Of a DNA stretch of 32,431 nucleotides, positions 12,778 to 26,882 are shown piece by piece. The notes under the pieces were generated by a model. That model was given only the letters and a program-made list of their open reading frames with translations. It was not told where the DNA came from and did no database searches. Within the stretch, counting starts at the first letter, position 1, and every line of letters begins with the position of its first letter. A program made the translations under genes and the position numbers. Source of the DNA: a virus; the IMG/VR virus record IMGVR_UViG_3300031841_003636, positions 1 through 32,431 of that record; one strand, given 5' to 3'.

Positions 12778-13101
12778 TTAAAGTATGCCCATTTGATATT
12801 TGGCTTCATCAGATACATGAGTGTCTGGATTCCATGGTGGATCAAATGTTAGGTTTAGTTTAATTAAGTTTACTCCTTCTGTACTGCGTACCGCAAACTC
12901 TGATTCCATCATTATCATATCGCCAAATGGACAATTAGGTGCAGTAAGTGTCATTAAAACTTGCACATCGTTTTCTTCATTTACACTGATGTCGTAAATT
13001 AAACCCAAATCTACTATGTTGATTCCTATTTCAGGATCAATTACTCTACGCAAATTTCTGCGTACTCTATCTTCTAACTTAATTTCGTTATCGCTTTGCA
13101 T
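12778..13101 (-). CDS. sufT: SufT/MIP18-family (DUF59) iron-sulfur assembly protein
   Basis: The 107-residue protein contains the MIP18 signature IDPEIGINIVDLGLIYDI (about residues 21-38) and LMTLTAPNCPFGDMIM with the conserved Cys near 57, followed by FDPPWNP. SufT proteins help mature Fe-S proteins, and related DUF59 proteins are encoded beside suf genes in many bacteria. It is the last gene of the operon and overlaps sufS by 28 bases. The symbol sufT is based on operon position; a PaaD-like or general carrier-targeting role cannot be excluded. Confidence 0.85.
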   Translation of the reverse strand: MQSDNEIKLEDRVRRNLRRVIDPEIGINIVDLGLIYDISVNEENDVQVLMTLTAPNCPFGDMIMMESEFAVRSTEGVNLIKLNLTFDPPWNPDTHVSDEAKYQMGIL

Positions 13102-14273
13102 AATGAATCTGATAATTTTTGTATGTCTTGTTCTGTGCTGTATATACCTGGACTTATTCTGACAACACCTTTACCGCCACTAACTTTATTTACTATAGGG
13201 TGAGCACACAATTTACCTACTCTTAATGCAATATTATCTAGTCCTACTAATGCACTTAAATCACTAGGGTGAAATCCATCGCATGTAAAACTATAAACAT
13301 TCCTGCCGTTTTGTCTATAACTAGGGTATATTAAATTTAAACCTTTAATATTAAAAATGCCTGCATCACTCATTGCAAAATCAATAGCAGTAAAATGATC
13401 TGTCATTCTATCATAGCCAACCCAGTTTATATATTCTGCGGCGACACCAAGTCCATGAATACCTGCAACATTTGGTGTTCCTACTTCGTGTTTAGCAGGC
13501 CCGTCATAAAAGTCTACATTACCATTAAAATCATAATGTGATACAGAGCCGCCACCTAACCTGGTTGCTTTGTACCTTTCATAAGGTAATCTGCTATACA
13601 TAAATCCGATACCTGTTGGGCCATACATTTTATGCCCACTAAACACGGCATGATCGACAGTATATCTATTAAATTCATGGGTACCAATCGTTTGGCATCC
13701 ATCAATTACAACTCTGATTCCTTTATCATGTGCGGCTTTGGTAAGTTTTTTATAGTCTGTTTTTATTCCGGTAACATTACTATGGCTGTGTATAGATAAT
13801 AAACTTGAAGGATACTGATCTAATAACTTACATGCTTCGTTTGTATCTATTGTGCCTCTTTCTGTAACAGGTAATACCACTAGTCTGCCGTTATCTACTG
13901 TTCTGCCTTGTGCTATCCAGGGTAGTATATTTGCAGTATGCTCTGCTTCTGTTATTATAACTGTAGGCACATCTTTATACCACTCTGCTATTATGTTTAA
14001 TCCTTCGGTAGCACCTGCTATAAACATTATTTGCTCTGGACTTGCATTTATTAGATTGGCTATAGACTGTCTTGCTTCTTCTATTTGTGCAGACGCCTCC
14101 TGACTTATTCTAAAATCACCTCTGTTCACATTACATCTTTTATACTCGTAGTACTCATTCATCTTGTCTAATACTCTCTGATGGGTTTGAGTACTTGCCG
14201 CACTATCCAAGTAAACCAAACTTGGGTCGTTATGTAATGTTGGAAATTCTTGTTTTAGTTGTTTAAGAAGCAT
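13074..14273 (-). CDS. sufS: cysteine desulfurase SufS
   Basis: This 399-residue protein is a full-length class II cysteine desulfurase. The PLP-binding lysine is K215 in FSGHKMYGPTGIGF. The phosphate-binding segment FIAGATEGLN, VIDGCQTIG and RLGGGSVSHYDF are present, and the catalytic cysteine C356 lies in RVGKLCAHP. It removes sulfur from cysteine and hands persulfide sulfur to the SufBCD scaffold. Its usual partner SufE or SufU is not in the window, so it may use a host partner. It overlaps sufD by 19 bases and sufT by 28. Length and key residues suggest it is active. Confidence 0.93.
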   Translation of the reverse strand: MLLKQLKQEFPTLHNDPSLVYLDSAASTQTHQRVLDKMNEYYEYKRCNVNRGDFRISQEASAQIEEARQSIANLINASPEQIMFIAGATEGLNIIAEWYKDVPTVIITEAEHTANILPWIAQGRTVDNGRLVVLPVTERGTIDTNEACKLLDQYPSSLLSIHSHSNVTGIKTDYKKLTKAAHDKGIRVVIDGCQTIGTHEFNRYTVDHAVFSGHKMYGPTGIGFMYSRLPYERYKATRLGGGSVSHYDFNGNVDFYDGPAKHEVGTPNVAGIHGLGVAAEYINWVGYDRMTDHFTAIDFAMSDAGIFNIKGLNLIYPSYRQNGRNVYSFTCDGFHPSDLSALVGLDNIALRVGKLCAHPIVNKVSGGKGVVRISPGIYSTEQDIQKLSDSLCKAITKLS

Positions 14274-15451
14274 TGTTTTAAAGTTTCCTCGGCTATATTC
14301 GTTTCTATACCTCTGCTTTCTAAGAAATATAGTTGTTGTTTATCTATGTTGCTTACCGTACAACCATGTGAACATGCAATCTCTTTTGTATTAATATCTA
14401 ATTGTGGCTCAGTTATTGCTGTAGCGGTATTACTAATAAGCAAATTCTTATTTATTAATTGTGCATCAGTTCCTATTGCTTCTTGATCAACTACTATAGA
14501 TCCTAAAAAACTACTATGAGATGTATCGTCTACAATGCTTTTTACATCTACTCTGCTCGTACTATTAGAGCCTATGTGATGTACTTCTACTAAGGTATTA
14601 TTAATGTAATTACCATATAAGTCATATGATCCTTTTATATTTGTTTTACATTCGTTATAAACATCTATAAACATAACATCTTGATTATGTTTACTTCCTT
14701 CTCCTGAGCTAGTAAAATTAAAGGTACTATTAGGAAATTGTATTACTGTAGAATCTATTATGTTAGACGATTTGTCTTTAAGTTCTACGTCATGTGATCT
14801 TTCTAAGGTAAGTCTACTAAAGTCTCTTACCAAGTAAACAATTTTATAAACTTTTAGGCCATCTTTATTTAAAAAGTTTTCATTTAAAGTTACATCAGAG
14901 TTTTTACCTATATCAATTATCACAGTGACGCAATTTATATCTTTATCTAAATATGTATCAGTATATGCAACAGCAATATTACTTCTATTATTGGCTTTAA
15001 ATTTTATACCAACTGTACCAACAGAATGTGCTACAGCAAAATCTGATATCCTGCCTGTTGGCTCAAAGTACGGTTGATATTTTGATAAATTATTTCTTGA
15101 CATATAAGGAGATAATAATTTAAATGTATTATTGTACCACATTTTAGATGAGCCTTGTTCTATATGGCCATCATCTATAATTATATCGTAATCAGTTACA
15201 CTCTCTGATTGCCATTTATCCTTCTTGGTCACATTACTTTCTGCATAATTCATATGATTAATTAATGAAGGCATATTCATACTTTTATATATTCTATTAT
15301 ACACAGGATTACCATTTTTTATAATGCTGTCTTTGTTTTTAACAGCAACCTGATGCATGTCAGATGTAGGATTAGAAAACATACTCTTGCGAAGTCCTAA
15401 CTCAAATAGGTTATGTAGATCAGCAATACTATATTCTATTTTGTCAGACAT
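14255..15451 (-). CDS. sufD: SufD, Fe-S scaffold subunit
   Basis: The 398-residue protein is divergent in its N-terminal two thirds but ends with the SufD signature EPQLDINTKEIACSHGCT, LYFLESRGI. H362 in this motif corresponds to the conserved histidine (H360 in E. coli) at the SufB-SufD interface. The middle shows the repetitive beta pattern of the SufB/SufD beta helix and a phenylalanine/serine-rich stretch. It should form the SufBC2D complex with the neighbours. It overlaps sufC by 8 bases. The divergence suggests long residence in the phage, and the family call rests mainly on the C-terminal motif and operon position. Confidence 0.9.
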   Translation of the reverse strand: MSDKIEYSIADLHNLFELGLRKSMFSNPTSDMHQVAVKNKDSIIKNGNPVYNRIYKSMNMPSLINHMNYAESNVTKKDKWQSESVTDYDIIIDDGHIEQGSSKMWYNNTFKLLSPYMSRNNLSKYQPYFEPTGRISDFAVAHSVGTVGIKFKANNRSNIAVAYTDTYLDKDINCVTVIIDIGKNSDVTLNENFLNKDGLKVYKIVYLVRDFSRLTLERSHDVELKDKSSNIIDSTVIQFPNSTFNFTSSGEGSKHNQDVMFIDVYNECKTNIKGSYDLYGNYINNTLVEVHHIGSNSTSRVDVKSIVDDTSHSSFLGSIVVDQEAIGTDAQLINKNLLISNTATAITEPQLDINTKEIACSHGCTVSNIDKQQLYFLESRGIETNIAEETLKQCFLNN

Positions 15452-16163
15452 CGAAGCCGTTCTCTAAAATATCATATGCAACTTGTATGTCATCATGCTG
15501 AGTTGCAAACCCACTTTTATTAATTATTGTTACAGTATCTGGATTTAGACTGTTAATAAGTTGAGCATAATGGCTTATAATAATCAATACTTTACCTTCT
15601 TGTTGTGCAAATACATTTAATTTTCTTGTTAAAACTTTAATAGCGTCTATATCTAAACCACTATCAGGTTCGTCTAAAATGGCTACCTGAGGATTTAACA
15701 TCTCTAATTGTATTAATTCGTTTTTCTTTTTCTCGCCACCACTTGCTTGTACGTTTAGTTGTTTTTTATCCCATTCGTCTGATAATCCTAGTTCAGTAGA
15801 CATCTCTTTAAATTTTCTTAAACTATCTCCTAACTTATCAGTTGTTTGTAAAGAGTTTAATGCTTGTCGCATAAACTGGAAATTACTTAATCCTTCAATA
15901 GGCGTAGGGTTTTGGAAACTTACAAACAGTCCTGCTCTAGCTCTTTCATATGTTTCCATTGCTAACAGGTCTTTACCATTTAATTCTACTGCACCTGATG
16001 TTTCTGTTGTTGGTGAGCCCATAAGAGCATGAGCAAATGTACTCTTGCCTACTCCATTAGGTCCCATTACAATATGAACACCTGGCCCAAATGTGAGATT
16101 AAGGTCATTTAGAATTGGATAATATCCGTCTATTTTTATACTAAACTCTTGCGTTACTATCAT
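15444..16163 (-). CDS. sufC: SufC, ABC-type ATPase of the SUF complex
   Basis: All ABC ATPase motifs are present in 239 residues: Walker A GPNGVGKST (34-42), a Q-loop FQNPTPIEGL, the SufC-type signature SGGEKKKNEL (141-150), Walker B AILDEPDSGLDID with E165, and the switch histidine H198 in ISHYA. The signature with consecutive lysines and the LDEPDSGLD block separate SufC from transporter ATPases. It drives conformational change of the SufB-SufD scaffold. It overlaps the sufB stop by one base. The protein is slightly shorter than E. coli SufC (248) and has no sign of damage. Confidence 0.95.
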   Translation of the reverse strand: MIVTQEFSIKIDGYYPILNDLNLTFGPGVHIVMGPNGVGKSTFAHALMGSPTTETSGAVELNGKDLLAMETYERARAGLFVSFQNPTPIEGLSNFQFMRQALNSLQTTDKLGDSLRKFKEMSTELGLSDEWDKKQLNVQASGGEKKKNELIQLEMLNPQVAILDEPDSGLDIDAIKVLTRKLNVFAQQEGKVLIIISHYAQLINSLNPDTVTIINKSGFATQHDDIQVAYDILENGFDV

Positions 16164-17614
16164 TATCCTACTGCTCCTTCTAATGTTACTTTAAGTAATT
16201 GATTGGCTTCTGCGGCAAACTCTAAAGGCAACTTCTGAAAGACGTCCTTACAAAATCCATTTACTACACAACTAACTGCGTCTTCTTGATCAAGTCCTCT
16301 GCTCTGTAAGTAGTATAATGATTCTTCTGATAATTTTCCTGTACTTGCTTCATGCTCTACTATACTGCTATTATTATATTGTTGCACAATTGGTAGTGTT
16401 ATTGCTCTGCTGTTGTCTAACATAAGGCTATCGCATTGTGTATAATTTCTACTGTTATGTGCATTCTTTCCTATACGAACTTGGCCTCTATATGTATTAC
16501 TACTGTCTCCAAAACTTATCCCTTTGCTTATAATTGTGCTCTTAGTGTTCTTACCTACATGTAGCATCTTGGTTCCTGTATCTGCCTGTTGCTTTCCTTT
16601 TGTTACCGCAACACTATAAAACTCACCAACACTATTGTCGCCTCGTAATATACAGGAAGGATACTTCCAAGTAACGGCACTTCCTGTCTCAACCTGTGTC
16701 CAACTAATCTTACTGCTTTCACCTTTACATAATCCTCTTTTTGTTACAAAATTAAGTACGCCACCAACTCCGTTTTCGTCACCTGGATACCAATTTTGTA
16801 CTGTGCTATATTTAATTTCCGCTCTGTCATGTGCTACTAGCTCTACTACAGCCGCGTGTAATGTATTCTCATCATATGCTGGTGCAGTACAACCTTCTAA
16901 GTAACTAACATAACTGTCCGCATCTGCTATAATCAGTGTTCTTTCAAACTGTCCTGTATTACGAGCATTGATGCGGAAGTATGTGTTCAATTCCATTGGG
17001 CACTTAGTACCTTTAGGAATATAACAAAAGGTACCGTCAGTAAAGACGGCACTATTTAGGCAAGCGAAGTAATTATCCTTTGCAGGAATAATACTACCTA
17101 AATACTCTTTTACGAGTTCGGGGTGTTCTTGTATGGCTTCACTTATACTGCAAAATATAATGCCATGTTTTTTTAATTCTTTCTGAAATGTTGTAGCAAT
17201 GCTGACACTATCAAATACAACGTCAACTGCAACTGTGGGAATAATATTAGGGTCTTTAGTCTCTATGCCTAACAATGCATCACGTTCTTGTAATGGTACT
17301 CCTAACTTATCAAATGTTTCTAATATCTCTGGTGGTATCTCATCTTTGTTTCTAAACCTAGGTGCTGAGTAATAACTTAATGCCTGATAATCTATTGGGG
17401 CATAACTAACTTCGGCCCAAGTAGGTTCTTTAATTGTTTGTAGATGTTTCCATGCTTTAAGTCTAAATTCAGTAACCCATTCAGGTTCTTCTTTTAAAGC
17501 ACTAAGCCTTTTAACTATGTCCTCTGTGAGTCCTGGTTCAAAGTCTTCTGTATCTGTAACTGTGTTAAAACCTGCTGTGTATTTATTGTTAGCAAGTTCA
17601 TCTAAATTGCTCAA
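16163..17614 (-). CDS. sufB: SufB, Fe-S cluster scaffold
   Basis: The 483-residue protein is full length. It contains [18 protein letters not shown] near the start, [35 protein letters not shown] with C242 (C254 in E. coli), and the C-terminal VEHEAST and [18 protein letters not shown]. By my alignment the cysteine C405 of E. coli, needed for de novo cluster assembly, is replaced by S402, as in some other SufB lineages. The start is a TTG, directly after the clpS stop with GGAG about 9 bases before it; no upstream ATG is in frame. It forms SufBC2D and is the second gene of the operon. Confidence 0.95.
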
Positions 17615-17911
17615 CTAAATCTTCTCCAATATAGACTTTAAAGGATGTCCATGATGTCTAGATACTAGAGTAACTTCGTTTACTTTTTGCTCGCCAATTT
17701 CTTGATTATAAATTCCAACTATTGCTTTTCCTTTCTCATGTATTTCAACCGTAAGTTGTTTGGCTTGCTCAATATTTTTATTAAACACTTCAATAATAAG
17801 TTTGATCACAAAATCCATAGGTGTGAAGTCATCATTTAAAATGATTACATTAAACCTATCTGGATATTTAAGTTCAACTTTTTGTATTGTTTTAGATTTA
17901 GATCTTGCCAT
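17615..17911 (-). CDS. clpS: ClpS, N-end rule adaptor
   Basis: The 98-residue protein matches ClpS: VIILNDDFTPMDFVIKLI (N-degron pocket), EQAKQLTVEIHEKGKAIVGIY and the tail HPLKSILEKI. ClpS binds proteins with bulky hydrophobic N-termini and delivers them to ClpAP; it also changes ClpA preference for other substrates. It stops 3 bases from the sufB start and is the first gene of the SUF operon. It has AAAAGG 6 bases before the ATG and a strong promoter. ClpX is encoded at 25608, but the usual ClpS partner is ClpA, presumably from the host. Bacteria commonly place clpS beside clpA, not suf genes. Confidence 0.9.
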   Translation of the reverse strand: MARSKSKTIQKVELKYPDRFNVIILNDDFTPMDFVIKLIIEVFNKNIEQAKQLTVEIHEKGKAIVGIYNQEIGEQKVNEVTLVSRHHGHPLKSILEKI

Positions 17912-17928: not shown

Positions 17929-17957
17929 ATTATACGAACAAACAGAGTAAATGTCAA
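17929..17957 (-). promoter_or_regulatory. sigma70-type promoter of clpS-suf operon
   Basis: TTGACA (17957-17952) and TATAAT (17934-17929) are 17 bases apart on the minus strand. The start would be near 17922, giving a short leader with AAAAGG before clpS. No other promoter is seen before sufT, so the six genes are likely one early transcript. Confidence 0.8.
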
Positions 17958-18221: not shown

Positions 18222-18674
18222 TTAGGATACTTTGATTTTTTGTGGTTTAAGTGCGTCAGGAACATTTCTGAATAGTTCGACTTTTAGAAGACCGTCTTCT
18301 AATTTTGCACTCTTAACCTCCACATACTCAGCAAGTTTAAAACTTCTTACAAAGTTTCGTTCTGCAATACCTTTATGTAAATACTCAATGTCGTCCATTG
18401 CTCCGGACTCATCGGCTTTAATGGTACCAGTAATAAGTAGGTTACCGTCTTCCAACTCAATGTCTATCTCGGACTTTTTAAATCCTGCAATAGCCAATGT
18501 AATTGAATACAGATCATCACCGTCTTTACTGATGTTGTATGGTGGATAGCCTTGTGAATTTGTTGCAGAATTCATTTGAGTTTCGAACTCATTGAATAGT
18601 CTGTCAAATCCGACTGTGGCTCTATATAGTGGGTTTAGTGTATCTGAAGTGATACGAAATTGCTTGTTTACCAT
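18222..18674 (-). CDS. Hsp20/IbpA-like small heat-shock protein
   Basis: The 150-residue protein has an IbpA-like N-terminus (PLYRATVGFDRLFNEF), the start of the alpha-crystallin domain YPPYNISKDGDDLYSITLAIAG, the core segment GIAERNFVRSFKLAEYVEV and the closing motif GLLKVELFRNVPD. Such chaperones hold unfolding proteins for refolding by Hsp70 and ClpB. Hsp20 is a common gene of T4-like marine phages. A very good ribosome binding site, AAGGAGA, is 6 bases from the ATG. It lies downstream of a 40-residue ORF and a structured leader region. Confidence 0.9.
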   Translation of the reverse strand: MVNKQFRITSDTLNPLYRATVGFDRLFNEFETQMNSATNSQGYPPYNISKDGDDLYSITLAIAGFKKSEIDIELEDGNLLITGTIKADESGAMDDIEYLHKGIAERNFVRSFKLAEYVEVKSAKLEDGLLKVELFRNVPDALKPQKIKVS

Positions 18675-18711
18675 GATTATCTCCTTAATTTAAGCAAGTT
18701 AATTTATTTTA

Positions 18712-18834
18712 CTAGTTCTTTTTAAACCCTAATGGCGAATAAAAAGATCGCGGAGTGAGGTCGTTTCCGTTTGTGCGTGTCTGTATCTCCTCACAACACT
18801 TGGCAAACTTCTTGGTTTCCTTTGATGTTGCCAT
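18712..18834 (-). CDS. 40-residue small protein ahead of hsp20
   Basis: An ORF starting MATSKETKKFAKCCEEIQTR and ending SFYSPLGFKKN is preceded by AGGA and GGAG within 12 bases of its ATG. It is basic with an internal CC pair and an Asn/Thr linker. It is 37 bases from the hsp20 start and probably shares its transcript. It matches no family I know. It could also be a leader peptide. Confidence 0.5.
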   Translation of the reverse strand: MATSKETKKFAKCCEEIQTRTNGNDLTPRSFYSPLGFKKN

Positions 18835-18858
18835 CTCCGGTCCTTTGTTGGTTGCCCC

Positions 18859-19148
18859 AAAAATAATGCCTAAGCATCATTCTAATCTGGAAGTCTTAAC
18901 CCGAGCACTTTTGAAGACCTACGTTTAAAGGCCCGTGCTCTTTTGAAGATTACAGTCTTCCTGTATCACCGAACTATTGCTAGTCCCCTAATACATAATG
19001 TAGGTCTACTTCCTTGTTACCATTCGGTTTGTTTCAGTTACCGTCCACTTACCTTGTGTATCATCTCCATTGACTCTACATGCAGTCTTGAATTAGCAGT
19101 AGACTTAATTCACTTACGATCCTTTTGCCCTTGCCTTTTCTTTCTTGC
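18859..19148 (-). ncRNA. candidate structured non-coding RNA / long leader upstream of hsp20
   Basis: This 290-base stretch has no credible gene in a genome that otherwise wastes little space. A late-type promoter predicts a minus-strand start at about 19148. Several helices can be drawn: a 6-bp stem with a GCAA tetraloop (18971-18986) inside an outer 5-bp stem (18962-18995), a 5-bp hairpin (18945-18960), a nested pair GAGCAC/GTGCTC (18903-18940) enclosing GGCCT/AGGUC, and an 8-bp hairpin with loop UUAG followed by a short U-run (18859-18881). The stems use G-U pairs only possible in the minus-strand RNA. The direct repeat CTTCAAAAG precedes both arms of the third stem. No tRNA, tmRNA or RNase P signature was seen. 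Confidence 0.5.
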
Positions 19149-19153
19149 AAGTT

Positions 19154-19161
19154 TATTTATC
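19154..19161 (-). promoter_or_regulatory. late-type promoter GATAAATA, leader RNA-hsp20 unit
   Basis: GATAAATA on the minus strand just after the GIY-YIG-like gene predicts a start near 19148. It would produce a transcript with more than 300 bases before the first ORF, far longer than other leaders here. Confidence 0.55.
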
Positions 19162-19167
19162 TTTTTT

Positions 19168-25216: not shown

Positions 25217-25630
25217 CTAATTGGAGCCTCTACCTCGTTGTCTTAAAACTTTAACTCTTTGTACCTGATTCCAGGCTTTTCGTTTTTCTCGTTTACCTTT
25301 AAGATGTTTTAGACCTGTAGGCGTTGGAGGCATCCATTCACCTTTCATGATCATATTATCTTTTGCTTTATTATCTCTTTTTACAGCCTGGTCTTTCATT
25401 CGTTTCTTTTTAGCACTAGGCTTTTCGTAATACTCACGTTTAGACAATTCCTTTTGGAAGTCCATTCTTTCTAAAACTTTCTTTAATTTTCTAATTGCGC
25501 CGTTTACATCGCCATTATAAACGTCTATAGATCGACCTGCGAATTCTTTCTTCTCTGTTTGCTGTCTTTTTTGTCGGGATTTATTATTAAAATCCTTTTT
25601 GTAATTGTTATTGTTGTTTTTCCAACTCAT
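25217..25630 (-). CDS. rpsU: ribosomal protein bS21 with long extensions, phage-encoded
   Basis: Residues 34-85 carry the bS21 core: VYNGDVNGAIRKLKKVLER, then LSKREYYEKPSAKKKRMKDQ and AVKR, parallel to E. coli ALRRFKRSCEK and REFYEKPTTERKRAK. Bacterial bS21 is about 70 residues; this one has an Asn/Lys-rich N-terminal extension of about 33 residues and a basic C-terminal extension with MPPTPTGLKHLKGK. bS21 binds near the Shine-Dalgarno helix and influences initiation, so a phage copy may steer host ribosomes to phage mRNAs. It overlaps the clpX end by 23 bases. bS21 is the most commonly reported viral ribosomal protein. Confidence 0.85.
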   Translation of the reverse strand: MSWKNNNNNYKKDFNNKSRQKRQQTEKKEFAGRSIDVYNGDVNGAIRKLKKVLERMDFQKELSKREYYEKPSAKKKRMKDQAVKRDNKAKDNMIMKGEWMPPTPTGLKHLKGKREKRKAWNQVQRVKVLRQRGRGSN

Positions 25631-26882
25631 CTATGCCTCTGTATATTTTATATTTAGTATCTAATTCTTCTCGGTCGTCAAATATTAGAATAGGTTTTTT
25701 ATCTCCATATGGATAGTTATCAAATCTTATGGCATGTACACCACTTTTATTGAACTCATCTATCCTAAACATAATGTTTATTAAACTATTTTCTACTATG
25801 CTCTTTAATGCTCTAGCACCCATTTTAGACTTTATTGATATTTCAGATACTTCTTTGTAGTAATTTTCTGTAAATATTATATCTAAATCATCAAGTCTTA
25901 ATAATGCCTTTACTTGCATAATAACATTATTCTTAACATCTGTCAATATCTTTCTAAGTTGCTCTTTGGATAAATTCTCCATAGTAGCAATAACAGGAAG
26001 TCTACCTACTAGTTCTGGTATTATTCCATAGTGTACTACATCTTCTGATCTTATTTTGTGTAATAGTTGATTTTTATTATCTTCTGATAATATTTTACTA
26101 TTAAATCCTATTTTAGATTTGCTTTTAAGTCTTTTTTCAATTATTTCCTCTATGCCAACAAATGCTCCTCCCAATATAAACATAACATTTGATGTATCAA
26201 ACTCAATATACTCATCAGAATACTTAGATTTTGTAGTAGTTTTTATTTTACACTGAGTGCCTTCAATAAGTCTTAATAATGCCTGTTGTACACCTTCTCC
26301 TGATACATCTCTAGTACTGGTATTACCTTCAGATTTACGAGCTTTTTTGTCTACTTCATCTATAAAAACAATGCCTCGTTCTGCTACGGATATATCAAAA
26401 TCAGACAGAGTAAGAAGACGTTCCAGAACACTTTCAACATCTTCACCAACATATCCTGCTTCTGTTAGTGTTGTGGCGTCTGCTATAGCAAATGGAACTT
26501 GTAGTTTTTTAGCAAGTGTTTTTGCTAATAATGTTTTACCTGTTCCAGTAGGACCAAGTAATAATACATTTGTTTTATCTATATCTACGTCATGTATTAC
26601 ATTAGATATTCTTTTATAATGATTATAGGCGTTCACAGACAAAATTTCTTTTGCCGCATCTTGACCCATAATATATTGATCTAAATAGTTTTTTATTTCT
26701 GAGGGTTTAGGTAATTCTGAAAAATCTAATGCAGTTATGACTGCTTGGTCGTCTTGTACAATACTGTAACTTAATTTTATACACTCATCACAAATATATA
26801 CACCTGGTCCAGCAATGAGCTTTTCAACATCGTCTCTTTTTTTACCACAAAAGTTACAACTTAAGGATTTATCTTCACTCAT
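25608..26882 (-). CDS. clpX: ClpX, AAA+ unfoldase
   Basis: The 424-residue protein is full-length ClpX. The zinc domain has C9, C12, C31 and C34. Walker A is GPTGTGKT (110-117), the pore loop GYVG is at 143-146, Walker B VFIDEVDK is at 172-179 and the ClpP-docking loop IGF is at 258-260. ClpX unfolds tagged proteins and feeds them to ClpP. The intact zinc domain and IGF loop suggest it can work with a host ClpP. The ATG overlaps the upstream stop as ATGA with AGG 6 bases before it. Phages often encode ClpP-like proteases, but ClpX is rare. Confidence 0.93.
   Translation of the reverse strand: MSEDKSLSCNFCGKKRDDVEKLIAGPGVYICDECIKLSYSIVQDDQAVITALDFSELPKPSEIKNYLDQYIMGQDAAKEILSVNAYNHYKRISNVIHDVDIDKTNVLLLGPTGTGKTLLAKTLAKKLQVPFAIADATTLTEAGYVGEDVESVLERLLTLSDFDISVAERGIVFIDEVDKKARKSEGNTSTRDVSGEGVQQALLRLIEGTQCKIKTTTKSKYSDEYIEFDTSNVMFILGGAFVGIEEIIEKRLKSKSKIGFNSKILSEDNKNQLLHKIRSEDVVHYGIIPELVGRLPVIATMENLSKEQLRKILTDVKNNVIMQVKALLRLDDLDIIFTENYYKEVSEISIKSKMGARALKSIVENSLINIMFRIDEFNKSGVHAIRFDNYPYGDKKPILIFDDREELDTKYKIYRGIDELEKQQ

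Follow-up and report, generated by a model that had tools for sequence, protein, structure and literature searches.

A modular structured leader ahead of a phage hsp20 gene, with a putative ROSE-like thermometer at its 3' end

Introduction

The minus strand of a 32,431-nucleotide viral DNA (IMG/VR record IMGVR_UViG_3300031841_003636, analyzed in full and here called the window) has a gene-free stretch between the end of a 163-aa open reading frame (ORF) (19168) and the hsp20 gene (18674). What does this stretch encode, and does it act on hsp20? A reading of the sequence alone had proposed a new structured RNA at 18859-19161 that could serve as a regulatory leader, small RNA (sRNA) or thermosensor for hsp20. 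ROSE-like thermometers, whose signature was described for Pseudomonas ibpA, have as their stated hallmark a U(U/C)GCU motif placed against the Shine-Dalgarno sequence, with UUGCU and UCGCU both listed (PMC3669281). Structured RNAs of other kinds are associated with phages. GOLLD and ROOL RNAs are linked to phages, and the T4-like marine phages Melnitz and Mosig have a glutamine riboswitch (glnA motif) (PMC9004378). Here we describe the window element as structured, conserved, modular and placed before hsp20. We read it, with a probability of roughly 0.62, as a cis-acting modular leader of hsp20 that ends in a ROSE-like thermometer.

Results

The interval 18859-19161 is gene-free on the minus strand and folds at -75.4 kcal/mol versus -60.8 +/- 4.4 kcal/mol for dinucleotide shuffles (z -3.29), with an equally good energy in 1 of 100 shuffles. 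The complete leader (18672-19160) reached -122.2 kcal/mol versus -99.4 +/- 5.7 kcal/mol (z -4.04), a value matched by none of 100 shuffles. The claim of a real structured element was confirmed, but the element is larger than claimed. Its proposed end at 18859 failed: the conserved structure runs past this position as far as the start codon of hsp20 (18672), with the best thermosensor candidate at 18681-18746. The interval is the 5' part of a leader of about 490 nt (18672-19161) that extends between a late-type promoter and the start codon of hsp20 (Table 1).

Table 1. Features of the hsp20 leader in the window, from the 5' border to the gene.
Feature	Position	Strand	Basis or remarks
Late-type promoter element GATAAATA	19154..19161	-	5' border of leader
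5' BB domain, two module B copies	19017..19160	-	Alignment A5; model R2
Module B copies	First 19096-19132, second about 19020-19055	-	GNRA loop GUAA in RGAUCGUAAGUGAA...CUACU
Variable stem with GCAA tetraloop	18961..19002 (loop stem 18973-18984)	-	Three compensatory pairs, window versus L003
Module A hairpin	18889..18960	-	Alignment A4; model R1; z -2.85
AU-rich hairpin with U-run	18860..18881	-	Sequence; not kept in all homologues; no terminator called
Domain C: GGYAAC...GUUACC-type closing stem, inner stem, GCAA hairpin	18802..18860	-	Helices 1-4 of alignment A3; compensatory changes
Domain D: stem GUGAGG/CCUCAC closing conserved ACAC-rich loop	18755..18794	-	Helix 5 of A3
Possible pseudoknot stem GCGA/UCGC, overlapping hairpin I	18735..18751	-	81% of cells paired
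Thermometer hairpin I: CUUUUUA..CGCC-AUUA-GGG..UAAAAAG	18718..18746	-	Helix 6 of A3; in other phage hsp20 leaders
Thermometer hairpin II: ACUUGCU with Shine-Dalgarno AGGAG, G opposite G	18681..18699	-	Helix 7 of A3
hsp20 gene, 150 aa	18222..18674	-	PF00011, E 5.7e-17; phrog_432

A search with hsp20 returned 28 viral loci, most of which had conserved noncoding sequence 5' of the gene in local alignments. This upstream conservation persisted even where Hsp20 identity was just 62-69%. Further contigs were recovered with patterns internal to the RNA, without use of hsp20; at every place checked, the patterns for the D loop and BB stood immediately 5' of hsp20. In total, we collected 45 distinct hsp20 leaders. 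The constant same-strand position immediately 5' of hsp20 supports a leader function. The late promoter that had been proposed at 19154 is represented by GATAAATA, and ATAAATA at the 5' border was invariant in 16 of 16 homologues; enrichment of TATAAATA was looked for in the window and not found. Searches of an annotated phage collection yielded no DNA relatives of the element, the only matches being to the thermometer region with the L059 and L054 leaders as queries. Nor did the upstream part (18755-19161) match any Rfam family at gathering score, permissive searches giving chance-level hits only, and no tRNA or tmRNA was detected by ARAGORN or Rfam.

One alternative, that the region encodes a small protein, rests on a 40-aa ORF (18712-18834) that remains open in both the window and L043. 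In most homologues, however, this ORF has lost its start or meets a stop at codons 3-14. Stops also occur in all three frames of the 5' half, and conservation tracks base pairing. The claim that no credible gene is present therefore held; the ORF was rejected as a conserved gene, and a coding function for the region is practically ruled out.

The BB domain, module A and the C/D domain all carry strong compensatory base changes. Module B has a GNRA loop (GUAA), and across 16 BB sequences 95.0% of cells held standard pairs versus 84.4% in shuffles, with double (compensatory) changes in 11 of 20 pairs. On each of five measures, all 500 shuffles fell short, and moving the pairing partner by one column lowered pairing to about 32%. 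Furthermore, the BB model recovered a second hsp20 lineage (L052-L054) that was absent from its training set. The GCAA stem that follows had been noticed earlier and held; it alone maintains pairing through three compensatory changes relative to L003, an 83%-identical relative of the window.

Module A has two mirrored CUUCAAAA/GG internal loops flanking a GNGCNC stem. In 28 sequences, 97.5% of its cells were paired, and the two variable core positions used AU/UA/CG/GC and UA/AU/GC with zero broken cells. Taken alone, the count of double-change pairs was unexceptional, with 116 of 500 shuffles matching it, since many of the pairs are invariant; the cell counts and covariation score were exceptional. 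A 9-base direct repeat reported in this region also held and proved longer: it is an 18-nt repeat (18900-18917 and 18932-18949, 89% identical), each copy of which precedes one arm of GAGCAC/GUGCUC. We also noted that UUCAAAA with its GG partner resembles a tRNA T-loop, a likeness only.

Domains C and D, aligned with the thermometer in 21 sequences, showed 93.8% pairing versus 78.8% in shuffles. Double changes affected 21 of 32 pairs, a result with no equal in 500 shuffles, and all five pairs of the domain D stem had compensatory changes. Because the structures were predicted from these very alignments and the sequences share ancestry, the counts do not represent independent events, a concern that the slid controls answer only in part. 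The hairpin with a U-run at the 5' side of domain C had been read as the final one of the element. This claim held in part, since the hairpin is present but is not found in all homologues, and its candidacy as a terminator was rejected with terminator criteria unmet.

The last 76 nt before the hsp20 start codon form two hairpins. Hairpin I is a covarying stem with the apex (U/C)GCC-NNNN-GGG. Hairpin II, in which CUUGCU pairs with AGGAG around a G opposite G as in the ROSE signature of Pseudomonas ibpA (PMC3669281), was paired in 100% of cells in the 21-sequence alignment. In a broader alignment (A6) of 39 leaders, including those of Mosig, HTVC008M, Melnitz and P-SSM4, every leader retained the U-G, C-G and U-A pairs next to this G opposite G, whereas the pair closing the loop was UA in 25, AU in 13 and other in 1. 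Thus, the CUUGCU/AGGAG pairs hardly vary, and covariation there amounts to one closing pair. In cultured phages, UCGCU replaces UUGCU. The segment 18672-18747 meets three features of ROSE membership: U(U/C)GCU imperfectly paired with the Shine-Dalgarno sequence in the 3'-proximal hairpin, a position within the 5' UTR of a gene for a small heat-shock protein (hsp20, PF00011), and a stable hairpin (the covarying hairpin I) ahead of the Shine-Dalgarno hairpin.

We also surveyed 62 independent hsp20 loci that were not used in building the thermometer model (R3). The model matched 55 of them, always on the coding strand and at the start of hsp20, with no matches elsewhere in these loci at E values up to 1. 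Its score is raised by the inclusion of the Shine-Dalgarno and start-codon sequence. UYGCU..GGA was present in all 51 distinct matches and, by eye, in several unmatched loci too. The upstream modules were absent from the surveyed loci except for a BB domain in two (L127 and L129). As most surveyed phage hsp20 genes have the thermometer without these modules, the modules are not needed for it. Two long contigs had a weak second R3 match (26 bits) apart from the main hsp20 match (G001:66610-66685 and G002:119039-119114).

Similarity to the Rfam family ROSE_3 was detectable but sub-threshold. The window hairpin II scored 17.1 bits against a gathering score of 43 bits, which was reached nowhere. 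Higher scores were obtained at other hsp20 starts (L079, 34.1; L061, 33.2; L065, 27.6; L183, 32.4; L176, 32.0 bits), the best phage locus being L185 with 37.4 bits. In the full window leader, the modeled accessibility of the Shine-Dalgarno sequence rose from 0.06 at 5 C to 0.25 at 15 C, 0.54 at 25 C and 0.71 at 37 C; the energy model gave no heat response for L158 and L176. We regard these values as weak evidence because non-canonical ROSE pairs are poorly handled and any weak hairpin opens with heat. Heat-induced opening and translation of hsp20 are inferred by analogy with tested ROSE elements, without transcript, probing or reporter data.

A referee could argue that UYGCU/AGGAG is an ordinary translation-initiation element or a phage promoter motif with no temperature response. 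ACTTGC is likewise present after the promoter at the leader's 5' border, within a 17-nt repeat, and ROSE_3 scores remain below threshold. Against this, a DNA pattern joining UYGCU and the Shine-Dalgarno sequence to an ORF of at least 60 aa matched hsp20 starts only. Cultured phages swap UUGCU for UCGCU, both of them ROSE forms (PMC3669281), the loop-closing pair covaries, and a second covarying hairpin stands ahead. We consider this alternative unlikely and retain the ROSE-like thermometer as the preferred reading of the 3' end.

Modules are lost and reordered between phages. With R for the thermometer, the leaders showed the orders A-R, A-BB-R, BB-A-R, BB-A-D-R, BB-D-R, A-D-R, D-R and R alone, and R lay constantly 20-24 nt before the start codon. 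The pattern used to call module order misses some D copies that are seen in alignment A3 and, in a few leaders, scores one B too many. Module A occurs once per whole-searched carrier contig, except for a weak second match in G014.

A two-copy pattern for module A also matched six other loci (L086-L091). In all of these except L090 the module A hairpin forms a terminator stem, GGGUCGUAGAU...GUCUACGACCC, with a U-run behind it. The L086 terminator folds at -40.3 kcal/mol (z -7.1). The five loci are from another group of uncultured phages, with the module A terminator after gp32-type genes; L060, which carries a variant of module A, is placed with them. A gp32 ssDNA-binding gene (PF08804; phrog_224) lies directly 5' of module A in L087 and L090, the L090 copy being without the long outer stem. 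The apical part GGGCCUUUAAACGUAGGU is identical in L086 and the window. The presence of module A in gp32 terminators with an identical apical part argues for a portable element that is not itself the thermosensor. On the gp32 3' side of four cultured phages, the next gene is near or overlapping (from annotation only, spacer sequences not included). Weak matches of the module A model in Mosig and P-SSM4 were rejected as lying inside coding genes. We also observed a tandem repeat like module A (39.8 bits) between comEC-like and pth-like reading frames on a contig of an Alistipes bacterial metagenome-assembled genome (L094:2206-2415); despite its score, we take it to be unrelated.

Two further alternatives concern the upstream modules. 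In the first, BB-A-C/D would be a separate stable noncoding RNA acting in trans, and hsp20 would have its own thermometer leader. The dispensability of the upstream part for the thermometer and the U-run hairpin favor this view, as does a near-repeat of the promoter region just 5' of hsp20, a possible second start. Yet no terminator was called within the leader, homologues do not all keep the U-run hairpin, domains C and D extend past it toward hsp20, and the collected BB and C/D copies sit before hsp20. We consider a separate RNA improbable. The near-repeat itself is 17 nt long and 88% identical, with copies on both sides of the structured element (18694-18710 and 19147-19163; minus-strand sequences AAAATAAATTAACTTGC and AAGATAAATAAACTTGC). 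A second promoter, or the remains of a duplication or insertion, could explain it.

In the second alternative, the upstream modules would be a riboswitch-like sensor of a ligand or ion that sets the thermometer or termination. These modules form large covarying structures whose loops are highly conserved, and they stand immediately 5' of a regulated ribosome site; the GCGA/UCGC pairing could connect domain D with hairpin I. However, the modules are freely lost and reordered, unlike an aptamer bound to one expression platform, and module A is present in the terminator after gp32. Covariation was looked for in the connecting GCGA/UCGC pairing and none was found, so this stem is unproven. A riboswitch-like function is, in our view, also unlikely.

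Discussion

Shuffled controls, conservation in related viral contigs and covariation, strong in three regions, all failed to refute the sequence-only reading. Its interpretation of a new structured RNA that is a regulatory leader of hsp20 is thus supported and is the best reading. The thermosensor function is supported for the 3' end alone, outside the proposed interval, and by structure and sequence alone. A discrete sRNA is not supported, although the lack of transcript data means that it is not excluded.

In the mechanism that we propose, the late-type promoter would start a transcript whose 5' end is the hsp20 mRNA leader, a long fold of independent modules (BB, A and C/D) ending in a two-hairpin ROSE-type thermometer. 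Hairpin II, which holds the Shine-Dalgarno sequence, would keep the ribosome site closed at low temperature; warming would open it and allow Hsp20 to be made. The upstream modules may protect the transcript or bind proteins, an idea prompted by the presence of module A in the 3' terminator stem of gp32-type transcripts. For modules A, B, C and D this role is a guess, inferred from context only.

The element resembles ROSE (ROSE_3, RF02523; Pseudomonas ibpA, PMC3669281) in its small heat-shock gene and the two hairpins directly upstream. U(U/C)GCU faces the Shine-Dalgarno sequence in the second hairpin, where ROSE_3 aligns in several phage loci. Unlike ROSE_3, it is phage-borne, scores below the gathering threshold and has a temperature response that is only inferred; about 400 nt of extra structured modules lie 5' of its thermometer. 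Like the large ornate RNAs GOLLD and ROOL (PMC12286853), it is long and highly structured, but it is shorter, modular and tied to hsp20, with no Rfam match and no sign of a stand-alone RNA. It is cis-regulatory like the glnA motif of Melnitz and Mosig (PMC9004378), but it lacks an Rfam match, precedes a different gene and has no known ligand.

The 3' part belongs to a known type of element, of which it forms a phage branch, and the upstream modules are RNA folds for which no matching described family was found. A limited search of open-access literature, excluding subscription papers, found no description of a phage hsp20 thermometer or structured leader. The leader appears to represent a layer of gene control that has not been described before in marine phages. 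A ROSE-type signature that is nearly universal would imply that RNA-based temperature sensing lets phages time a chaperone. The added modules are new covarying RNA folds, one of them in two gene contexts, which makes their role directly testable. In a bolder reading, modules A, B and C/D would be RNA classes not described so far, and marine phages would build riboregulators by combining them as interchangeable blocks; module A would serve at both the hsp20 5' and gp32 3' ends as a common recognition or protection element in infection. For this reading, we judge the balance to tip slightly against.

The phage fragment also encodes most of an iron-sulfur assembly set and protease parts near hsp20. 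The minus-strand regions 13074-17911 and 25608-26882 contain genes for SufB, SufC and a second SufBD-core protein, together with a class-V aminotransferase (SufS-like), ClpS and a ClpX-like protein. Just ahead of the clpS gene is a promoter sequence that matches TTGACA-17-TATAAT perfectly (17929-17957, minus strand).
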